Positions 2 through 8,981 of a stretch of DNA of 13,171 bases are shown here, piece by piece. Location of the stretch: positions 1 through 13,171 of the forward strand of contig OMIW01000139.1 in the NCBI GenBank assembly GCA_900299205.1. Direction: 5' to 3'. Position numbers and translations under genes: made by a program. The notes beneath the pieces were generated by a model. The model was given only the letters and a program-made list of their open reading frames with translations, had not been told where the DNA came from and did no database searches. Every line of letters begins with the position of its first letter. Within the stretch, counting starts at the first letter, position 1. This DNA is from Pseudomonadota bacterium. Its GTDB lineage: Bacteria > Bdellovibrionota_C > UBA2361 > OMIW01.

Positions 2-1855
2 GGGGGAGACCCGCGCTACGGCCCGAATTGTAGCAACACGACGATAGATATCAATTATTTCGGCCCTTCCTTTAGCTTGAACGTAGTATCTGACGGGCAC
101 TTTGCAGGCCCAATCGCGTCACTGTCGCTGCCTGAGCTGAGCGTTCTCGGATTGGATGTGGCACGCTTCCCCATCGGATCGGCAGTAGTTGGATTCTCGT
201 TCAGCAAAGAGCTCGTGAGGACGGCGATGTGGTGCGTTACTCCGACTCCTCTGCCCCTGGTGGGCAATGCGCTGGCGATTGAAACGCCAACTCCCACGCC
301 GTGTCCAACGCTCTCTCCAACTCCTTCAAGGACTCCAACGCCCATCCAGACTCCGGGCCCGACCCTGGCTCCCCTAGCCACTTGGACTGCTCTTCCTACT
401 TGGACACCGGTACCCACGTGGACCACTTTGCCTACCTGGACCCCGCTGCCAACATGGACGCCACTTCCCACTTGGACCGCGACGGCTACTCGTACGTCAA
501 CGCCGACACAAACAGCGACACCCACATCCTCAGCGACTTGGACCGCGACGGCAACACCCACAGCAACTCACACAGCAACGGCTTCAGCCACTCCGACTGC
601 AACCGCGTCCTGTACCTTTACGCCCTCCTCCACCCCAACGGCGACGGCAACAGCAACCGCCACGCGAACGGCTACCGCGACGCCAACAGATACAGCCACT
701 GCCACCCCAACCAGAACGGCAACTCCAACTGCAACTGCCACCGCAACGTCAACGGCGACCAGCACGGCAACCCCGACCTCTACCCCAACGGCTACGGCAA
801 CAGCGACCGCCACTCGAACGGCTACCGCGACGCCAACAAATACAGCCACTGCCACCCCAACAAGAACGGCAACTCCAACTGCAACCGCCACCGCAACGTC
901 AACGGCGACCCGTACGGCAACCCCGACCTCTACCCCAACGGCTACGGCAACAGCGACCGCCACGCGAACGGCTACCGCGACGCCAACAAATACAGCCACT
1001 GCCACCCCAACAAGAACGGCGACTCCAACTGCAACCGCCACCGCAACGTCAACGTCGACCAGCACGGCAACCCCGACCTTCACCCCAACGGCTACGGCAA
1101 CGACGACCGGCACCGCCACCCCGACGGCTACGCCAACTCCAACGAGAACGCCAACTGCCACCCCAACGGAGACAAATACCCCAACTCCGACAGCTACCTT
1201 CACGAGCACGGCGACCCCAACTGAGACTGCGACACCGACCGAGACCCCGATGCCGCCTACTCCTTCAGCGACACCAACGGCGACACCAACCGCTGACCCC
1301 GCGATTACTCCGCAGGGGTGTACGTTACCCATCGATGTGTGTGGCGTCTGTGGAGGAACAACGACCGACCAGAGCCAGTGTCCAGGCCAGTGCGTCCTGA
1401 TAAAGCCGACGACCAAAATGCGTCGAATAGGTTCAAGACTTCTCGGTGCATCTTTGGAGGTTGGAAAATCGTGGGACAGCGATATCAAGCGTGCCCAAAA
1501 AAGTGGTCGATGCTCTCAGGTACTCGCACGGCCGCTCGAGAGCACCTCGAAGAGGTTCCAAGCTAAAATCAGGGCGGAGATAACCCGAGGGCTCCTGAAA
1601 TCGACTAAGATATGTGATGGGACCTGCGTCGTGCGGAGCTTTAGCCGTGAGGTGCGGAAGATAAAGGGAATGATAGACCAGTACGCCAAGGCAGCGACTG
1701 GGCTCGCCCGAGATGTCGTCAACTGCTCTCAAGTCAACGGCAATCGGGATAACACCGGTCCTCGGACGGAGCAGAGGTTGCGAGATATCGTAGCAGACAT
1801 AGCAGGTCTCGACACGAACTGCCGAATCTGTAAGGTCGCAGCTTTGAGTGAGTAA
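2..1855 (+). CDS. Thr/Pro-rich repeat surface protein with Cys-rich C-terminal domain (5' partial)
   Basis: The frame is open to the left edge (617 codons visible), so the true start is probably outside; a TTG at 77 is the first start-like codon but has no convincing ribosome binding site. Residues 1-79 form a globular-looking piece. Residues 80-435 are a Thr/Pro/Ala/Ser stalk, with six PTWTxL-type hexapeptides near its beginning and three near-identical 50-residue units later. Residues 435-617 are a separate Lys/Arg-rich, probably helical domain with 11 Cys, including DVCGVCGG at about 445-452 and paired Cys near the end. Such stalks are typical of exported, often glycosylated surface proteins, and the CGVCGG motif recurs in extracellular Cys-rich repeats. 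Secretion and surface location are therefore inferred; the signal peptide would lie off-window. I do not recognise a specific family. No membrane anchor is seen at the C terminus. Confidence 0.8.
380..478 (+). repeat. 18-bp tandem repeat encoding Trp hexapeptides
   Basis: Six ACN-TGG-ACN (Thr-Trp-Thr) triplets recur exactly every 18 bases from 380 to 478, giving the protein pattern TWTxLP or TWTPVP. Another TWT occurs later, outside the regular array. It forms the first part of the Thr/Pro stalk. Confidence 0.85.
631..1100 (+). repeat. 150-bp tandem repeat (about 3.1 copies) encoding 50-residue Thr/Ala/Pro units
   Basis: Copies at 651-800, 801-950 and 951-1100 align without gaps. By hand I count about 7 mismatches between adjacent copies and 8 between the outer two, roughly 95% identity. 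Bases 631-650 are the end of a partial copy. The period is a multiple of three, so gain or loss of a unit keeps the frame. Within each unit there is a finer Thr-Ala/Thr-Pro dipeptide periodicity. Confidence 0.92.
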
Positions 1856-2017
1856 GAATCATAGGTGAAGCGCTCGTCAGCCGAGAGAGTAGAGGCGGGA
1901 AAAGAACAAGGGGGCGGACCTGAGGGATAAGTCGTAGTGATGAGGGAGCGTCGGCCTTTGAGGGTCCCGTCGATAACAAGGATGTAAAGCGAGCGAAGAC
2001 AGGGCCTTTTACCGTCA

Positions 2018-2047
2018 AATAGCCCCTCCTCGCGAGGACGGGCTATT
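2018..2047. terminator. Long hairpin between convergent genes
   Basis: AATAGCCC (2018-2025) pairs with GGGCTATT (2040-2047). After one C-C mismatch the pairing continues inward through the palindrome CCTCGCGAGG. There is no T-tract directly after it on either strand, so it may be a pause, processing or bidirectional termination element rather than a textbook intrinsic terminator. Confidence 0.5.
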
Positions 2048-2060
2048 CAGAAGGTCGATT

Positions 2061-2112
2061 AAAAAAGCTCGCGTTCGGTTCCCTCTGCAACCTTCGAGCT
2101 GTCAATTTTTTT
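2061..2112 (-). terminator. Intrinsic terminator of the zor-like operon, possibly bidirectional
   Basis: On the minus strand AGCTCG (2095-2100) pairs with CGAGCT (2066-2071), with an inner GGTT/AACC pairing, and is followed at once by a T run (2061-2066). On the plus strand the same stem is followed a few bases later by seven Ts (2106-2112), so it could also stop the converging surface-protein transcript. It lies about 50-100 bases after the last minus-strand stop codon. Confidence 0.65.
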
Positions 2113-2163
2113 AGGGTCTGCGATTGATCGCTCGGCATAAGGTTCGACGCGCATGTGTGGTTG

Positions 2164-3081
2164 TCAAACCGTCTCGTTCCATTCCCAACGCTGAGCCGTG
2201 GCTATCGCCTCCTCATCAACAGTTTCAGCCCATCGCGCGCGATTGACAGGGAGAGGTCCGAGATTGGGATGAGCGATTACTATCCCCTGCACCGCCTTGA
2301 GGATGACCGAGGGAGGGCAGCCTGAATTCATCAAAATTAGATTCGATAGCGCTCGACCGAGATCTCGCGGCCGAAACCACCGATAGGGCAATAGGCCATC
2401 AACGACGTATTGCAGTTCATCCGGCGAGGGTCTCGGGCGTTGACAGATCCGACGAATCGCGGTTGATGTGACAGCGCTCATAAACCCGGAGTCATCATCA
2501 ATCCCAAAACGAACGGCGAGCTGAGTTGAGGAGAGTCTGTTATTCACCGCCTCAAGGGACAGATTATCGACATCGTTGAGATCTACCAGAAACCGCACAT
2601 ATCCTCGCCACAATCTGAGCCGAGGACTTCCCTCATCCTCCACTGCCGAGAAACGGCCCCTGAGGAACTCAACTACTCCAAAACGGTTTATAAGCTCGCC
2701 CCACTCTCGATGATAACTTCGGACCATTGAGATTATTGCGCGACGACTCAAGGGAATTTTTCTGGTCTGAAGATGCGCTATAAACACGGGACTCATCGAA
2801 ATTGATGGAATATCACAAAGACGATCTATATCGAGAGACGAGAGCTCCGCCTTTGGTAATCCATCTAATAAAGTTGAAGCCCAAAGCTCTTCTGACTCAC
2901 GAGATTTGACGACGCGTCGTCCCCCTCCAAACGAAGCCTCAAATTTCCTAATAGCATCCTCAAAGAGGGTGAAAGGAGCCGGAAGCTCGTCCCCATGAGC
3001 TGTGCCACCTCCAAGGGAGCGCGAAAGTTCCTCAAGTCTCCTCAATCCGTTCAAAGAGGTAGAAGTAGCTGAGTCCTTCAC
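2164..3081 (-). CDS. ZorC-position helical protein of unknown function
   Basis: This is a 305-residue soluble protein with no TM segment or signal peptide. Its GTG start overlaps the zorB stop by four bases (GTGA), and AGGAG lies 7 bases upstream, so the start is well supported and translation is probably coupled. It occupies the place of zorC in type I Zorya. Parts recall, from memory only, the helical region of ZorC/EH_Signature proteins: a SRRAIISMVRSYHREW stretch at 112-127, an Arg-Leu-Trp-Arg-Gly-Tyr stretch at 156-161, and an NRARWA segment followed by an acidic helix near 280-300. It is much shorter than E. coli ZorC (about 560 residues, from memory) and stops where the rest of the family would continue. 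No helicase Walker motifs, HNH pattern or PD-ExK nuclease core is visible. It could be a truncated ZorC, a distant relative, or an unrelated third component; I cannot decide from sequence alone. Confidence 0.5.
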   Translation of the reverse strand: MKDSATSTSLNGLRRLEELSRSLGGGTAHGDELPAPFTLFEDAIRKFEASFGGGRRVVKSRESEELWASTLLDGLPKAELSSLDIDRLCDIPSISMSPVFIAHLQTRKIPLSRRAIISMVRSYHREWGELINRFGVVEFLRGRFSAVEDEGSPRLRLWRGYVRFLVDLNDVDNLSLEAVNNRLSSTQLAVRFGIDDDSGFMSAVTSTAIRRICQRPRPSPDELQYVVDGLLPYRWFRPRDLGRALSNLILMNSGCPPSVILKAVQGIVIAHPNLGPLPVNRARWAETVDEEAIATAQRWEWNETV

Positions 3082-3800
3082 TGCCGGGCTCCTGCGAGAA
3101 GCTGCTCCCTCACCAGACTATCAAGGTGGGATTTAACCCGTATCTTGAACTCGACTCGACGACTCAACGCCGCATTGGGGTAGTAATAGTTCGGATGCTC
3201 AGCCCCCTCCTCGTCGTTCTTTGGACAGGGGAATGGCTCTGCCCCTGGACTTTCACACATGGGATTGCTCGAACCTCTTCCACTTACCGAGGTTATGTTG
3301 AGAAAGCATGGCTCGTACTCCGGGGTCGTGAAAGACAGCGCTTTGAGCATCACCTCAAGTGCCCGCCGCTGGCTCAGAGCAAGATTATCTTTTTGATCCC
3401 CCGTCGCGTCGGTGTGTCCCTCTATGATTACCGAATTGACAAACTCTTGGTTGTCCTTTGCACAGAGAAGCTCGTTCATCTGAGGGGTAAATCGCTCAAG
3501 GAAGGCCGTCGATTGCTTATCGACTTCGTGGATTGATGGATTGAACTTGAGAGCTTTCTCGGGGACGACGACGATAAGGGTATAGGGATCCTGTTCATCC
3601 TGAATTACTTTTACTCCGTCAAATCGTGGCACGAGCCTTTGTTCGAGAGCGGATTTAATCCTCTCCCGCGCATCCTCCGTTGTCTTTGTCTCGACCCGGT
3701 CATGACTCAGGGCAACGACCAGCATCAGGATAAAAATGACCATCAGGGAGGTCATAAGGTCGGTCAGTGAATTACTGAGGGCTATCGATTTATGGTCCAT
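3078..3800 (-). CDS. zorB: ZorB-like MotB/OmpA stator protein
   Basis: In the MotB/ZorB family this subunit couples ion flow through the ZorA ring to an anchor on peptidoglycan. The 240-residue product has a short cytoplasmic N terminus and one TM helix at about 12-31. It carries Asp14 in LTDLMTSLMVIF, which matches the ion-carrying Asp of MotB and ZorB. The periplasmic OmpA-like domain spans about 72-222: EGHTDATG at 127-134, then N139, LSQRRALEV at 142-150, and RRVEF at 214-218. An insertion of about 20 residues before RRVEF contains Cys182 and Cys192; Cys113 and Cys165 are the other two. A GTG at 3806 would add two residues, but the G-rich Shine-Dalgarno sits 5 bases before the ATG at 3800, which I prefer. 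It follows zorA by 15 bases in the same frame after two TGA codons. Identity as ZorB rather than flagellar MotB rests on size, the partner gene and the absence of flagellar genes nearby. Confidence 0.88.
   Translation of the reverse strand: MDHKSIALSNSLTDLMTSLMVIFILMLVVALSHDRVETKTTEDARERIKSALEQRLVPRFDGVKVIQDEQDPYTLIVVVPEKALKFNPSIHEVDKQSTAFLERFTPQMNELLCAKDNQEFVNSVIIEGHTDATGDQKDNLALSQRRALEVMLKALSFTTPEYEPCFLNITSVSGRGSSNPMCESPGAEPFPCPKNDEEGAEHPNYYYPNAALSRRVEFKIRVKSHLDSLVREQLLAGARQ
3089..3093 (-). promoter_or_regulatory. Shine-Dalgarno for the ZorC-position gene
   Basis: AGGAG inside the end of zorB, 7 bases before the GTG at 3081, supports the GTG start and the 4-base overlap. Confidence 0.75.
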
Positions 3801-3805
3801 TGTCA

Positions 3806-3814
3806 CCCCCCCTC
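3806..3814 (-). promoter_or_regulatory. Shine-Dalgarno for zorB
   Basis: GAGGGGGGG on the minus strand, including seven Gs in a row, ends 5 bases before the ATG at 3800. It lies just after the tandem TGA TGA stops of zorA. Confidence 0.65.
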
Positions 3815-3815
3815 A

Positions 3816-6800
3816 TCACCGAGAATCGCCACGAGGACCATGAGAGCCACCTGGAAAACCATTATGTGAACCACCGCTATCGCGATGATCAATCAAGATG
3901 TCTGACAAGTTGGTAATTGCCGACTCAAAGGTCACCAGACCCCGGGCCGATAGTTCATCGTATCGCTCGAGCGTTCCGTGGAACTGCTCCTGAATGCGGG
4001 ACTGGAATCGCCAAATCTGCTCCTCGAGCTGCGACATGATCTTCGCAATCGACTGATCGAGAGTCGAAAATACCTCGTGATAACCCTTAAGCGCCTCAAC
4101 ATTCTGCGTGAAGAGTGCTCGTGTCTGTTCAGTGATCCCCTCTTCGCGCTCTTGAAGCTGCTGAGTGGCCGTTATCACTACCCTCAGCGCCGCCGTGCCC
4201 TCCCCAATCGCCCGTGAACTCTCATCGAGCCCCGACTTAACCCGGGCGAATGCCTCAACAGCAGGTCCAAATCCTGACAAAGAGGAAACTAATTGCCCTG
4301 CAGTTTTCTCGAGGGATGTGCTCGCAACGATAACCGCCTCCGCTCCGCTACGCTCGCGGTCAGCTATGGCTGAGAAGGCTGATGCGGCCTTAGCCACCAC
4401 CCCTTCAAATTTGCCGACTGAATCCCCCACCGCTCGCCTCACCGACTCGGAGCTATCGGTCACGATGCGCTGCATTCGATTACCGACCGCCTCAAATACG
4501 TTAATACTCCGCTCGAGTTGCGAGCCCGTTGCCTCGACTCTCTGTATCAGCGAATCACCAAACGTGGCCGATGCGTTCGCAATCTGGGCGCATGACTCAG
4601 CAAGTAGTTGCGGAATCCCTCGAAGCGAATTACCCGCCCCCTCGATGAGAAGACTTATATCTGACAGCTGCTCAACGGCCCCCGAGGTAACCTGATCTTT
4701 CAGAGCTTCCAGAATTTCCTTATTATACTGCCAGACCTGCTTATCGAGTCGCTGGACTATACCCGCAATCGTATTGTCGAGCTTTTTGAAGAGCCCCTCC
4801 TGTAGCTCGAGCGATTGACCATGGTAGTCAATCAAACTGCGTGAGCGCTCGGCCACTTGGTCGCTCTGAGCTATCACCGCACGCGCGCCCTCTAAGACCT
4901 GGGTGAGCACCTCCGCTCCCTGCTCCATCGCCGCTGCGCTTGCCTTTAAGACCTGAGAGTATTCCGCCTCAACGGGATCCCTCGTGGAACCCCGAGCTCC
5001 GTTACCGGTCGCCGCCTGAGCCGTTTCCCGATTTGCAACTGCTGACATCGTCAAAGCGAGTTGAGCGACCGACTCTTGCAGATGCGCTGAGGACTCCTCG
5101 ACCGTTGAAATTATGGACCCCACCGCATTTACCAGCGCACCCTCGAAGCGACCTCCAACCAACTCGAGGAGGGAAATCGCTCGTTGGCGCGATTCCTCGG
5201 ACTTCTCGAGGTAACTCTGAATAGCAGATTCGGACGTACCGCCCCCTTGGTTAGTCTCTGTGATGGATTTTGCGAACACCCCTTTCAGCTGGTCCAAACT
5301 GTGAACGATGCTCTCAAGAGGAGCGGACAGCGTCTCGGAACTGATTGAAACCGCCTGCGCCACCTGTTCACGAATGCCGGCCACCGCATCGTGTTGCACC
5401 TGACCAAACTGCTCCTGAGATCGGGCCATGAGACGGCCCATCGACTGCTCCAATACCGGTCCAATAGAGAGCAATTGCTCAAACTGCTCTGAGTTGCGGT
5501 CAATCACCTTTTGCGACTGAAGAACGAGCGCCTCTCCCTGCTCAAATAGCCGTCCGGTGCTTGCGAGTGCCCGCTCTATTACCTCCGCTCCCCTTTCAAA
5601 ACTGGCCGCATTATCGCTAAACGCAGCACCTGCCTCCCCGACGTGAGCGACGGCCTTTTCAAGCTCTATCAGAACAGCCTCGGTCCGCTCGAGCACTAAG
5701 GGAAGTGCATCATTGGCTGGTGTCGATGTGCTCTGCTCACGCGGGCTCCTCTCCACCATCTGAGCAAAAGTCGCCGCTGCAGCATTCACCGATACTTCAA
5801 CTCCCGCTGAAACTTTCTCTAAAGACTCACTCAAACTACGGGAGGTTCTGACCACCGATTCTTGCATGCGCGATCCGACCCCCTCAAGTGTCTTAAGAAT
5901 CCCGGCAAGCTGCTCCTTCGACTGCGATGCATGTTGCCTGAGCGAGTCATCTATCGCTTCAGATGCCGCCACCATCTTTCCGGTAGAACCAGAAAGTGCT
6001 GCCGAAATCTGTTGCAGCGACTCGGTGGAGGAACTTAGGGCGGCACTTACCGCCTTAACCTGCTCTGAGACCCCCCGGAGCAGCCGATTATGCGCATCCT
6101 CTGCTGCGGCAGAGTGTGCTGAAAGCCCCGGCCTCTCGACGATCTCAATCGAACCCGAGGGCTGATTTCTGAAATCCGCAGCCACGGCACAAAGTTGCTG
6201 CATCATTGATTCGATCCTTTCGAGCGTCATCCCCGCTGCATTGTGGACCTCATTCCTGATGTACTGAGGAATGTGAGCAGAAACAATTCGGCTTCTGTTC
6301 ACCGAATCTAGGACCGCTGTCTGAATTTCACGAAGGACGCGGTCGGATGACTGGAACTCAACGTTCTCATCGATCACCCGCCGAATCGAGGCGATGGTGG
6401 CCAAACTAATCCCGACTACTATCCGCTCATAAACCACAAACAGAGCGCTTGCACCGAGCGCACAAACAGAGGCCAAAAATTTTCCTGATAGATTTGACAC
6501 AAGATGCACAATTCCAACCCGCATCCGTTCAAATTCAAGAAGGGACTCGGCCGTTGAGGTAGAGCTACTCGACACAATCGCCCCGTTGAGCCCTGAAAGA
6601 ATCGCGAGAAAGGTCAGAAGGAGGCCCATGCTCGAAAGGATCGAGGGTACCGTGTCTATTATTCGCATGTTTACCCATGCGGCGAGTATCTCCTGCGGAT
6701 TGAACGCCTGACGGGGTGGAGTGGCAGAAGCGAGGCTGGTCCCTCCCGTCTCGGGCTCGAAAACGGCGAGCGATCTTCGGACTTGACGCCAACGCTCTTG

Positions 6801-7043
6801 GTAGGCAGGGGTTGAAGCAAATGCTACGTCGAGCTCCTCGACAGTGGCCACGGAGATTGGATGATCATATAAAATCGATACTAATTGCCGTCTGAGCCGG
6901 AGCGACTGAGCTATCAAACTCACCAGTCGATGGGTGAGATACACCACCGCTACGAAGAAGAAAACGCCGAGAGCCCAGATCCCCGTGGCAAGAAATGAGG
7001 GGATCGACAACCCGAACATAACAACATCAGACCCGGCCGCCAT
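3816..7043 (-). CDS. zorA: ZorA-like MotA/ExbB-family motor protein with very long helical tail
   Basis: In Zorya, ZorA forms the inner-membrane ring around the ZorB pair and carries a long cytoplasmic tail thought to pass the infection signal to effectors. From the ATG at 7043 the product has 1075 residues. TM1 is about 14-38, TM2 about 131-156 with the MotA/ExbB-type SMGLLLTF (138-145), and TM3 about 186-212. The rest (about 240-1075) is a Gln/Glu/Ser/Ala-rich, probably coiled-coil tail of some 835 residues, containing three related units (see findings) and ending in a Gly/His-rich segment (1057-1075). E. coli ZorA is, from memory, about 730 residues, so this tail is longer. The tail looks like chemoreceptor helix, but there is no HAMP or periplasmic sensor domain. 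The frame is open to a TTG at 7262 (73 more residues), but that codon has no Shine-Dalgarno, while AAGAGA stands 7 bases before 7043. It ends with TGA TGA, 15 bases before zorB. Confidence 0.85.
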   Translation of the reverse strand: MAAGSDVVMFGLSIPSFLATGIWALGVFFFVAVVYLTHRLVSLIAQSLRLRRQLVSILYDHPISVATVEELDVAFASTPAYQERWRQVRRSLAVFEPETGGTSLASATPPRQAFNPQEILAAWVNMRIIDTVPSILSSMGLLLTFLAILSGLNGAIVSSSSTSTAESLLEFERMRVGIVHLVSNLSGKFLASVCALGASALFVVYERIVVGISLATIASIRRVIDENVEFQSSDRVLREIQTAVLDSVNRSRIVSAHIPQYIRNEVHNAAGMTLERIESMMQQLCAVAADFRNQPSGSIEIVERPGLSAHSAAAEDAHNRLLRGVSEQVKAVSAALSSSTESLQQISAALSGSTGKMVAASEAIDDSLRQHASQSKEQLAGILKTLEGVGSRMQESVVRTSRSLSESLEKVSAGVEVSVNAAAATFAQMVERSPREQSTSTPANDALPLVLERTEAVLIELEKAVAHVGEAGAAFSDNAASFERGAEVIERALASTGRLFEQGEALVLQSQKVIDRNSEQFEQLLSIGPVLEQSMGRLMARSQEQFGQVQHDAVAGIREQVAQAVSISSETLSAPLESIVHSLDQLKGVFAKSITETNQGGGTSESAIQSYLEKSEESRQRAISLLELVGGRFEGALVNAVGSIISTVEESSAHLQESVAQLALTMSAVANRETAQAATGNGARGSTRDPVEAEYSQVLKASAAAMEQGAEVLTQVLEGARAVIAQSDQVAERSRSLIDYHGQSLELQEGLFKKLDNTIAGIVQRLDKQVWQYNKEILEALKDQVTSGAVEQLSDISLLIEGAGNSLRGIPQLLAESCAQIANASATFGDSLIQRVEATGSQLERSINVFEAVGNRMQRIVTDSSESVRRAVGDSVGKFEGVVAKAASAFSAIADRERSGAEAVIVASTSLEKTAGQLVSSLSGFGPAVEAFARVKSGLDESSRAIGEGTAALRVVITATQQLQEREEGITEQTRALFTQNVEALKGYHEVFSTLDQSIAKIMSQLEEQIWRFQSRIQEQFHGTLERYDELSARGLVTFESAITNLSDILIDHRDSGGSHNGFPGGSHGPRGDSR

Positions 7044-7264: not shown

Positions 7265-8401
7265 TTAACCAGCAGCGAGCATCTCTTCCCGCGCCGCTTT
7301 ACCCTTTTTTTGTCCCGTTACCGTCAACAACTGGCCACAGGCCGCGTCGATATCGCGCCCCTTGGACCACCGAACCGTTACCTCAACCCCTTTCTCGTGG
7401 AGTTTTCGCTGCCATTGCGCCACCCACTCCTCAGGGGGAGTCTGAAAACCCAAACCTGCGTTTGCATTGTAAGGAATGAGGTTGACCTTCGCAGGAACTC
7501 CTTTGAGGAGCCCCGGTAACCGACGGAGATCTTCCGTCGTGTCATTCACCCCGTGCAACATCACATACTCTATCGTAATCCGCCGCCGCTTGTTGGCGGG
7601 ATACTCGCGAAGAACCTCCAGAAGTTGCTCGAGCGGATACCGCTGATTTACCGGCATTATCTGCGAACGGACCTCATCGGTCGTCGCGTTGAGCGACACA
7701 GCAATGTTAGCCGGAACGGTTGCACCGAATTCACGAATCGCCGGCACGAGACCCACCGTAGAAACCGTTATCTTCCGGGGCGCAATCCCGATGCCATGCA
7801 TGTCGGTGAGTACTCGAACCGCAGTGCGAATATTGGGGAGGTTGTGGAGAGGTTCCCCCATCCCCATAAATACAACATTGGTGAAGGTGTCCCCGAACGA
7901 TCGCGAATCGGCTATAACCGCCATAACCTGCCGGAGTATTTCGGATGCGCTCAGATGCCGCCGAAGACCCATCGTTGCCGTCCGACAGAACTTGCACCCC
8001 ATGGCACACCCGACCTGGGACGAGACACAAAGGGTGTTCCGACGAGGTTGCTTGATCAGCACCGTCTCGACTAGGTCCCCTGACTCCACCTCGACAAGAT
8101 ATTTGCGGGTGCCATCTTCGCTTATCTGACGAGAATGGATGCGTCCTGTCGGAATAACGAGCTCCTGTATCAGTCGGTCACGAAACCCCTTGGAGAGGTC
8201 AGACATCTGGGCGATATCCCCTATGCCGCGCTTGTAAACCCACTGAAAAAGCTGCGTGGCCCGGAAAGGGGCTTCCCCATAGCGGTGCTGAATCTCCCTG
8301 CCTAAGGATTCCCGGCAATGCGCCAACAGATCAAGCGGCGAATGCGTCTCGGGTGTGGAGCCGGTTTGCTCTTCGGGCATGGGGACAGAAGCAAGCGACA
8401 T
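7265..8401 (-). CDS. rlmN: Dual-specificity RNA methyltransferase RlmN
   Basis: This radical-SAM enzyme methylates C2 of A2503 in 23S rRNA and, in the characterised E. coli enzyme, A37 of certain tRNAs. The 378-residue length fits the family (E. coli 384). The iron-sulfur cluster motif CxxxCxxC is Cys132, Cys136, Cys139; Cys125 just before it and Cys355 in the IDAACGQL segment correspond to E. coli Cys118 and the methyl-carrying Cys355. Further family segments are FMGMGEPLHN (178-187), SLNAT (236-240) and the conserved YNANAGLGF region (311-319). The ATG at 8401 has only a weak, distant AAGG upstream; the next in-frame ATG (8380) has nothing better. ndk lies upstream in the same direction, a pairing also found in gammaproteobacteria, and zorA lies downstream. 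A near-consensus promoter precedes it, so it probably has its own transcript. Confidence 0.98.
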   Translation of the reverse strand: MSLASVPMPEEQTGSTPETHSPLDLLAHCRESLGREIQHRYGEAPFRATQLFQWVYKRGIGDIAQMSDLSKGFRDRLIQELVIPTGRIHSRQISEDGTRKYLVEVESGDLVETVLIKQPRRNTLCVSSQVGCAMGCKFCRTATMGLRRHLSASEILRQVMAVIADSRSFGDTFTNVVFMGMGEPLHNLPNIRTAVRVLTDMHGIGIAPRKITVSTVGLVPAIREFGATVPANIAVSLNATTDEVRSQIMPVNQRYPLEQLLEVLREYPANKRRRITIEYVMLHGVNDTTEDLRRLPGLLKGVPAKVNLIPYNANAGLGFQTPPEEWVAQWQRKLHEKGVEVTVRWSKGRDIDAACGQLLTVTGQKKGKAAREEMLAAG

Positions 8402-8567: not shown

Positions 8568-8981
8568 TTAGGCAACCTCTGGAAAAAATAAACCTATTTC
8601 GCGCGCTGCGCTCGTTGGGCTGTCAGAGCCGTGTACTGCATTTGCTCCGATAGAATCACCAAATCGCGCCCGTATCGTTCCTGCATCGGCCTTCGCTGGA
8701 TCGGTCGCTCCCATCAGGGTTCGATTTAAGGTGACGGCATTGTCTCCCTCTAGAACCGAGATGAATACAGGCCCACTGCACATGTAATCAACGAGCTCAC
8801 CAAAAAAACTCCGCTCTTTATGCTCGGCGTAAAACTGCTCAGCCTCTGCCTTCGTCATGGTGTGGATACGGCCAGCGATGATAGAGAGGCCCGCCTCTTC
8901 GAAGGTTGCCAGGATCTGCCCGAGAACTCGCTTTGCCATGGCGTCCGGTTTTACGATTGAAAAAGTTCGCTGTCGTTCCAT
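8568..8981 (-). CDS. ndk: Nucleoside diphosphate kinase
   Basis: This enzyme transfers the gamma phosphate between nucleoside triphosphates and diphosphates through a phospho-histidine, keeping cytoplasmic NTP and dNTP pools balanced. The 137-residue length is standard. Visible family features are TFSIVKPDA (6-14, with the nucleotide-site Lys11), the RxxxFFGELV region (57-64), the Arg-rich IRARFGDS segment (103-110) and the active-site NAVHGSDS with His117. The ATG at 8981 has GGAG 9 bases upstream. It lies 166 bases before rlmN and about 120 bases after the membrane protein gene at 9105, with a plausible promoter in that gap. No unusual residues are seen. Confidence 0.98.

Follow-up and report, generated by a model that had tools for sequence, protein, structure and literature searches.

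The closest described relatives of the locus analysed here are the Zorya defence systems. Type I combines a ZorA with a MotA/ExbB-like core and a long tail, a ZorB with a channel Asp and an OmpA-type domain, a ZorC with an EH domain and, after zorC, a ZorD made up of an SNF2 helicase and a nuclease; type II has ZorE (HNH nuclease) after zorB, and type III has ZorF (DUF3348) and ZorG (DUF2894). ZorAB is an ion-driven motor of 5:2 composition that is anchored to the peptidoglycan, and in the model proposed for type I it recruits ZorCD (PMC11890865). Deletion of each component abolishes protection by the Zorya I system of Serratia (PMC11890865). A second set of genes comes from magnetotactic cocci: in 'Ca. 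Magnetaquicoccus inordinatus', 'EH signature', MotB and apolipoprotein-like genes of unknown function are described between mamD-like and feoA1, in passages of a 2019 paper that do not link the three genes to Zorya (PMC6783814). Our literature search found no paper naming both magnetosomes and Zorya.

The window, that is, the whole stretch of 13,171 bp that we analysed, is one entire contig (G000:C139) of a draft genome of ~2.4 Mb in 206 contigs, ~90% complete. Its minus strand carries ndk, rlmN, zorA, zorB and a short zorC in that order (Table 1). Gene calls confirm zorA, zorB and the short zorC as genuine genes at the coordinates given in a first-pass annotation made from the sequence alone, including the 4-bp overlap of zorB and the short zorC, and the three frames run through 1,622 codons without a stop or frameshift. 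Both rlmN and ndk are chromosomal neighbours conserved across the order; the Zorya genes lie directly 3' of rlmN in the window and in none of the eight rlmN loci read in relatives. The terminator annotated after the third gene is only partly borne out: a very stable hairpin lies between the convergent genes (~2021-2048, in the region 1985-2080; fold z -3.3), but it has no T-tract and is absent from the output of a terminator scan of the window. Likewise, the gene beyond it is convergent as described, but in place of a recognisable surface protein it encodes a Thr/Pro/Ala repeat protein for which a Pfam search gave no match. Within this gene, a unit of 150 bp is repeated in tandem (3.2 copies at 94% match).

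Table 1. Features of the window discussed in the text, with positions counted from its first letter.
Feature	Position	Strand	Description
zorA-like	3816-7043	-	1,075 aa; three TM, MotA/ExbB-like core, ~800-residue helical tail
zorB-like	3078-3806	-	242 aa; N-terminal TM with Asp16, C-terminal OmpA-type peptidoglycan-binding domain, EGHTD motif
short zorC	2164-3081	-	305 aa; N-terminal helical half of ZorC, without EH domain
intergenic stretch	1856-2163		expected place of the zorC 3' part and zorD; no remnant detected; contains the hairpin
rlmN	7265-8401	-	insertion-site landmark, outside the Zorya system
ndk	8568-8981	-	neighbour of rlmN
repeat-rich (TATPT-type) protein gene	2-1855	+	convergent; boundary of the locus, outside the system

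The window ZorA and ZorB are Zorya type I-like motor subunits. The first was annotated as a three-TM, MotA/ExbB-like protein with a giant tail, and this holds: it matches PADLOC ZorA1 (3.6e-13), while ZorB matches PADLOC ZorB1 (5.9e-31), and the closest solved structures for both are the ZorA and ZorB chains in the PDB. The NCBIfam matches (antiphage_ZorA_1, 1.6e-13; ZorB1, 2.2e-9) fall under the curated cut-offs, and the OmpA domain of ZorB passes that of Pfam. In PADLOC the top-scoring profile of each protein is a Zor profile, and so it is for ZorB in NCBIfam. ZorAB profiles fit the two proteins better than flagellar MotAB or Tol/Exb, and the window ZorA is not among the matches listed in a MotA_ExbB search of its own genome. 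ZorA thus has the core and long tail of type I and ZorB the channel Asp and OmpA-type domain; only the numbering of the membrane Asp, given earlier as Asp14, needs care, as it is residue 16 from the GTG start and 14 from the next ATG. Besides Asp16, the channel residues kept are in the Thr segment 'LLLTFLAI' and the Ser segment 'SGKFLASV' of ZorA. The window ZorA is unusually long, with 1,075 aa against 642-679 aa in nine related full-length ZorAs, including that of the acidobacterial locus L066, which also has a short ZorC; the long tail is therefore no general companion of the short form. An internal duplication of the tail was rejected, as self-comparison gave no significant match, and comparison with the tails of relatives gave weak similarity of coiled-coil type only.

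The third protein (P0001) had been taken for an unrecognised sole partner of the motor. This part of the annotation fails, because P0001 is the N-terminal, all-helical half of ZorC, with the EH domain absent. Profile searches that matched ZorA and ZorB gave no usable match for P0001 alone in Pfam, NCBIfam or PADLOC, so that its identity becomes visible only through relatives. A scan of the phylum with P0001 gave weak matches in two genomes (G035 and G002), to proteins that sit after zorB or before zorD. Against an HMM built from ten full-length ZorCs, with P0001 left out, it scores 86.0 bits across residues 34-295 (highest score among 200 shuffles, 0.7). Aligned with these relatives, P0001 accounts for two thirds of ZorC from the N-terminus and stops at W-x3-E-x-V, immediately ahead of the conserved 'FFF...FW...VEF...H' block of the EH domain. 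The Glu and His of that block, missing in P0001, are the counterparts of E400 and H443 in E. coli ZorC (PDB 8r68; counted on the printed alignment), two residues that we take to matter for function. The AlphaFold model of P0001 is all-helical, with pLDDT mostly 75-95 from residue 61 and weak before it. The helical part comes first and the beta-rich EH part follows it in the model of a full related ZorC, for which 8r68 is the top PDB match. The P0001 model itself, a helical repeat, had no significant match in Foldseek or VIA-align, and 8r68 was absent among the matches listed. No close match to P0001 came from searches of plasmids, viral contigs or genome contigs.

The statement that no known effector is present at the locus stands. 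No ZorD follows the short zorC, the ZorC half occupies the place after zorB where type II has ZorE and the operon ends with it, and none of the three proteins matches ZorF or ZorG in Pfam or PADLOC. In the 2.1 kb beyond the short zorC, no zorC or zorD remnant rises above noise in any frame, frameshifted ones included. An EH_Signature (PF15611) search of the window's own genome gave no match. The unlinked zorD that the first-pass annotation thought worth seeking in the host genome was not found either: two SNF2 proteins were rejected as candidates since they match only the helicase segment of ZorD, although an unlinked zorD could be missed in an assembly that is ~90% complete.

Complete relatives exist: in the same class, L013 has zorA-zorB-zorC-zorD, also with a 4-bp zorB/zorC overlap, and zorD follows an EH-containing zorC in 11 of the 12 clade loci with readable downstream DNA (L013, L015, L016, L017, L018, L019, L023, L024, L029, L056 and L057; some of the zorD reads are partial). 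This makes the four-gene order the standard state, from which the window departs by loss of both ZorD and the EH half of ZorC. The presence of intact zorC-zorD directly after zorB in relatives goes half way to what the annotation had named as refuting its reading, namely zorD or zorE right after this gene in related genomes and a clear deletion here, but an EH-less half also recurs in two other lineages (see below). In the twelfth locus, L105 (G298), the ZorC is full-length and zorD is reduced to a stub of ~60 codons, beyond which lies a pair of unrelated genes; this is clearly a real zorD deletion, unlike the window in appearance, and a rule that an EH-containing zorC is always followed by zorD was rejected on its account. 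By eye, this minus-strand pair (L105:3135-6748) resembles an AbiE-type toxin-antitoxin system.

Other shortened forms were met during the survey. The 306-aa ZorC of L012 and L028 was rejected as a natural short form, because a contig end cuts the gene. In L020 (positions 1346-4163; Bryobacteraceae) a tail-less ZorA of 285 aa and a ZorB are joined by a 425-aa ZorD-related protein, which matches the N-terminal part and, weakly, the C-terminal part of ZorD with the helicase absent, so that the locus looks like a reduced Zorya form. Two acidobacterial loci (L021:155-2299 and L022:1991-3552) have ZorAB with a tail-less ZorA (311 and 295 aa) and no adjoining ZorC or ZorD match. At a contig end in a cyanobacterial bin (L025:10674-11363), a ZorC-like N-terminus continues, judging by eye, as RNase HII-like sequence, possibly a chimeric assembly.

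A survey for further copies of the three-gene unit, as the annotation had proposed, found none in the window's own phylum (45 genomes) but one in another. Among 396 genomes of Acidobacteriota, the phylum of Occallatibacter, we found full-length ZorCs and a 309-aa ZorC in G365 that ends at the same profile position as P0001. Its locus, L066, lies on a 3.67-Mb contig and consists of zorA (650 aa), zorB and the short zorC without zorD, followed by a convergent gene and, ~2 kb downstream, a transposase-like gene. Frameshifted zorC or zorD remnants downstream of L066 did not rise above noise, and its ZorC half was not found in plasmids. A further scan of 399 genomes returned full-length ZorC only, and the short form is thus uncommon.

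Five of 398 Pseudomonadota genomes encode a protein of 421-423 aa whose match to ZorC stops at the boundary seen in P0001 and L066 (L091, L092, L099, L100 and L101). In both of those scanned with EH_Signature the match ends at residue 267 of 423, as in L066, and an Hpt-like domain follows the ZorC half in the two tested (5.3e-7 in one; 0.07, below cut-off, in the other). Upstream are a ZorB-like protein of 309-314 aa and a giant ZorA-like protein (1,334 and 1,609 aa in the two translated loci; open frames of 1,265-1,634 codons in the other three), with no ZorD. Three of the five loci lie in magnetosome gene clusters, next to mamD, mamH, mamE and Feo genes, and the other two adjoin feoB. From gene order and domains, rather than their sequences, we infer that the three genes of PMC6783814, as its passages describe them, belong to the same family. 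These loci (L092:6683-13722, L099 and L100, with L091 and L101) hint that magnetosomes and phosphorelay may be connected with Zorya-type motors, and would extend such motors beyond defence.

In a ZorB tree of 47 rows, the type I loci with which the window groups come from Acidobacteriota, Chlorobiota and the window's own class; L066 falls elsewhere within the type I clade, the magnetosome set has a branch of its own, and the short forms require at least three separate state changes. The window's branch is long (0.93), and as no starred branches fix its position, its exact neighbour is uncertain. The ZorC half is as divergent from full-length ZorCs as its ZorB predicts (residual -0.05 SD; L066, -0.32 SD), which speaks against long relaxed drift of the fragment and is compatible both with continued constraint and with a recent cut.

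Judged by its anatomy and homology, the absence of EH and ZorD, its grouping with zorABCD loci and the recurrent cut, the locus represents a Zorya I that has been secondarily reduced and whose ZorC lacks the EH half. The annotation had rightly listed a minimal subtype, a decayed system and a non-defence role as options; what falls away is the new partner. Between a working copy and a recent remnant, readings that overlap and whose weighting is a matter of judgement, we lean slightly towards a retained motor-adaptor module. The uninterrupted frames, the 2.1 kb of downstream DNA clear of debris (unlike the L105 stub) and a ZorA tail longer, not shorter, than in complete systems all speak against a decaying remnant, in which one recent deletion would have taken the 3' third of zorC along with the entire zorD and left frames as yet uneroded. 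Moreover, the cut coincides to within a few residues with that in L066 and falls where the Hpt fusions have their edge, and an EH-less half without ZorD in two other lineages is not explained by a one-off deletion. A remnant nevertheless keeps a real, if lesser, probability: zorC and zorD are adjacent at the corresponding place in relatives, so that a single deletion suffices, and L105 shows that zorD deletion happens in this clade. The single copy found in the phylum (45 genomes) and the need for every component where Zorya I was tested (PMC11890865) tell for a remnant and against a retained module, and the docking of the ZorC N-half on ZorAB is a prediction.

A motor co-opted for a non-defence task, such as signalling or envelope work, would recall the magnetosome-cluster loci, with their giant ZorA-like and ZorB-like proteins, ZorC-half-Hpt fusion and lack of ZorD, and the ZorA tail is enlarged in the window also. 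We consider this improbable, as the window ZorB groups with zorABCD loci and apart from the magnetosome set, Pfam and NCBIfam searches detected neither an Hpt nor any other signalling domain in P0001, and the window has no magnetosome genes. Very improbable is a misjoin in a metagenome bin that removed the 3' part of zorC and zorD: the short zorC has its own stop inside continuous sequence with the convergent gene beyond it, and the same cut occurs on the large contig of L066, even if a 206-contig draft in which the window is one whole 13-kb contig invites the suspicion.

Of the type I system, the locus keeps the motor, by analogy an ion-driven ZorA5ZorB2 complex, together with the helical half of ZorC, and has lost the EH half and the ZorD helicase-nuclease. 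The helical half may dock on the motor and read ion flow or tail movement after a disturbance of the envelope, while the natural cut suggests that the EH half and ZorD make up the DNA-acting output. Having no known output, the window locus is not expected to attack the DNA of phages in the way known for Zorya I; if the locus is active, the motor's signal might pass through the ZorC half to an unlinked partner, or the motor might work by itself, e.g. by ion flow. That ZorC is naturally cut between its halves, with ZorD absent in every case read, predicts a division of labour in which the N-half couples to the motor and the EH half works with ZorD. More tentatively, comparative evidence raises the possibility, to our knowledge new, that ZorAB and the ZorC N-half are a module of their own, a motor and adaptor without the DNA-cutting arm, which has been used repeatedly, so that Zorya-type motors could be wired to non-nuclease outputs.

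Set beside known systems, the locus has only the ZorAB core in common with Zorya types II and III, and is without their ZorE, ZorF and ZorG. The magnetotactic cocci genes, as far as the passages of PMC6783814 describe them, and our five Hpt-fusion loci share with it a giant-tailed ZorA-like protein, a ZorB-like protein and an EH-less ZorC N-half without ZorD, and differ in the fusion to Hpt, the longer ZorB on a separate branch and the position beside mamD/mamH/mamE or feoB. L066 shares the three-gene unit, the cut point and the absence of ZorD; its ZorA is of normal length, its ZorB lies in another subclade, a transposase-like gene is nearby, and the two ZorC halves are only 17-18% identical. 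From Zorya type I the window differs in lacking the EH half and ZorD and in a ZorA tail ~400 residues longer than in related complete loci, whereas it shares the ZorA and ZorB families, the gene order with the 4-bp zorB/zorC overlap, the homologous N-terminal half of ZorC and the ZorB clade.
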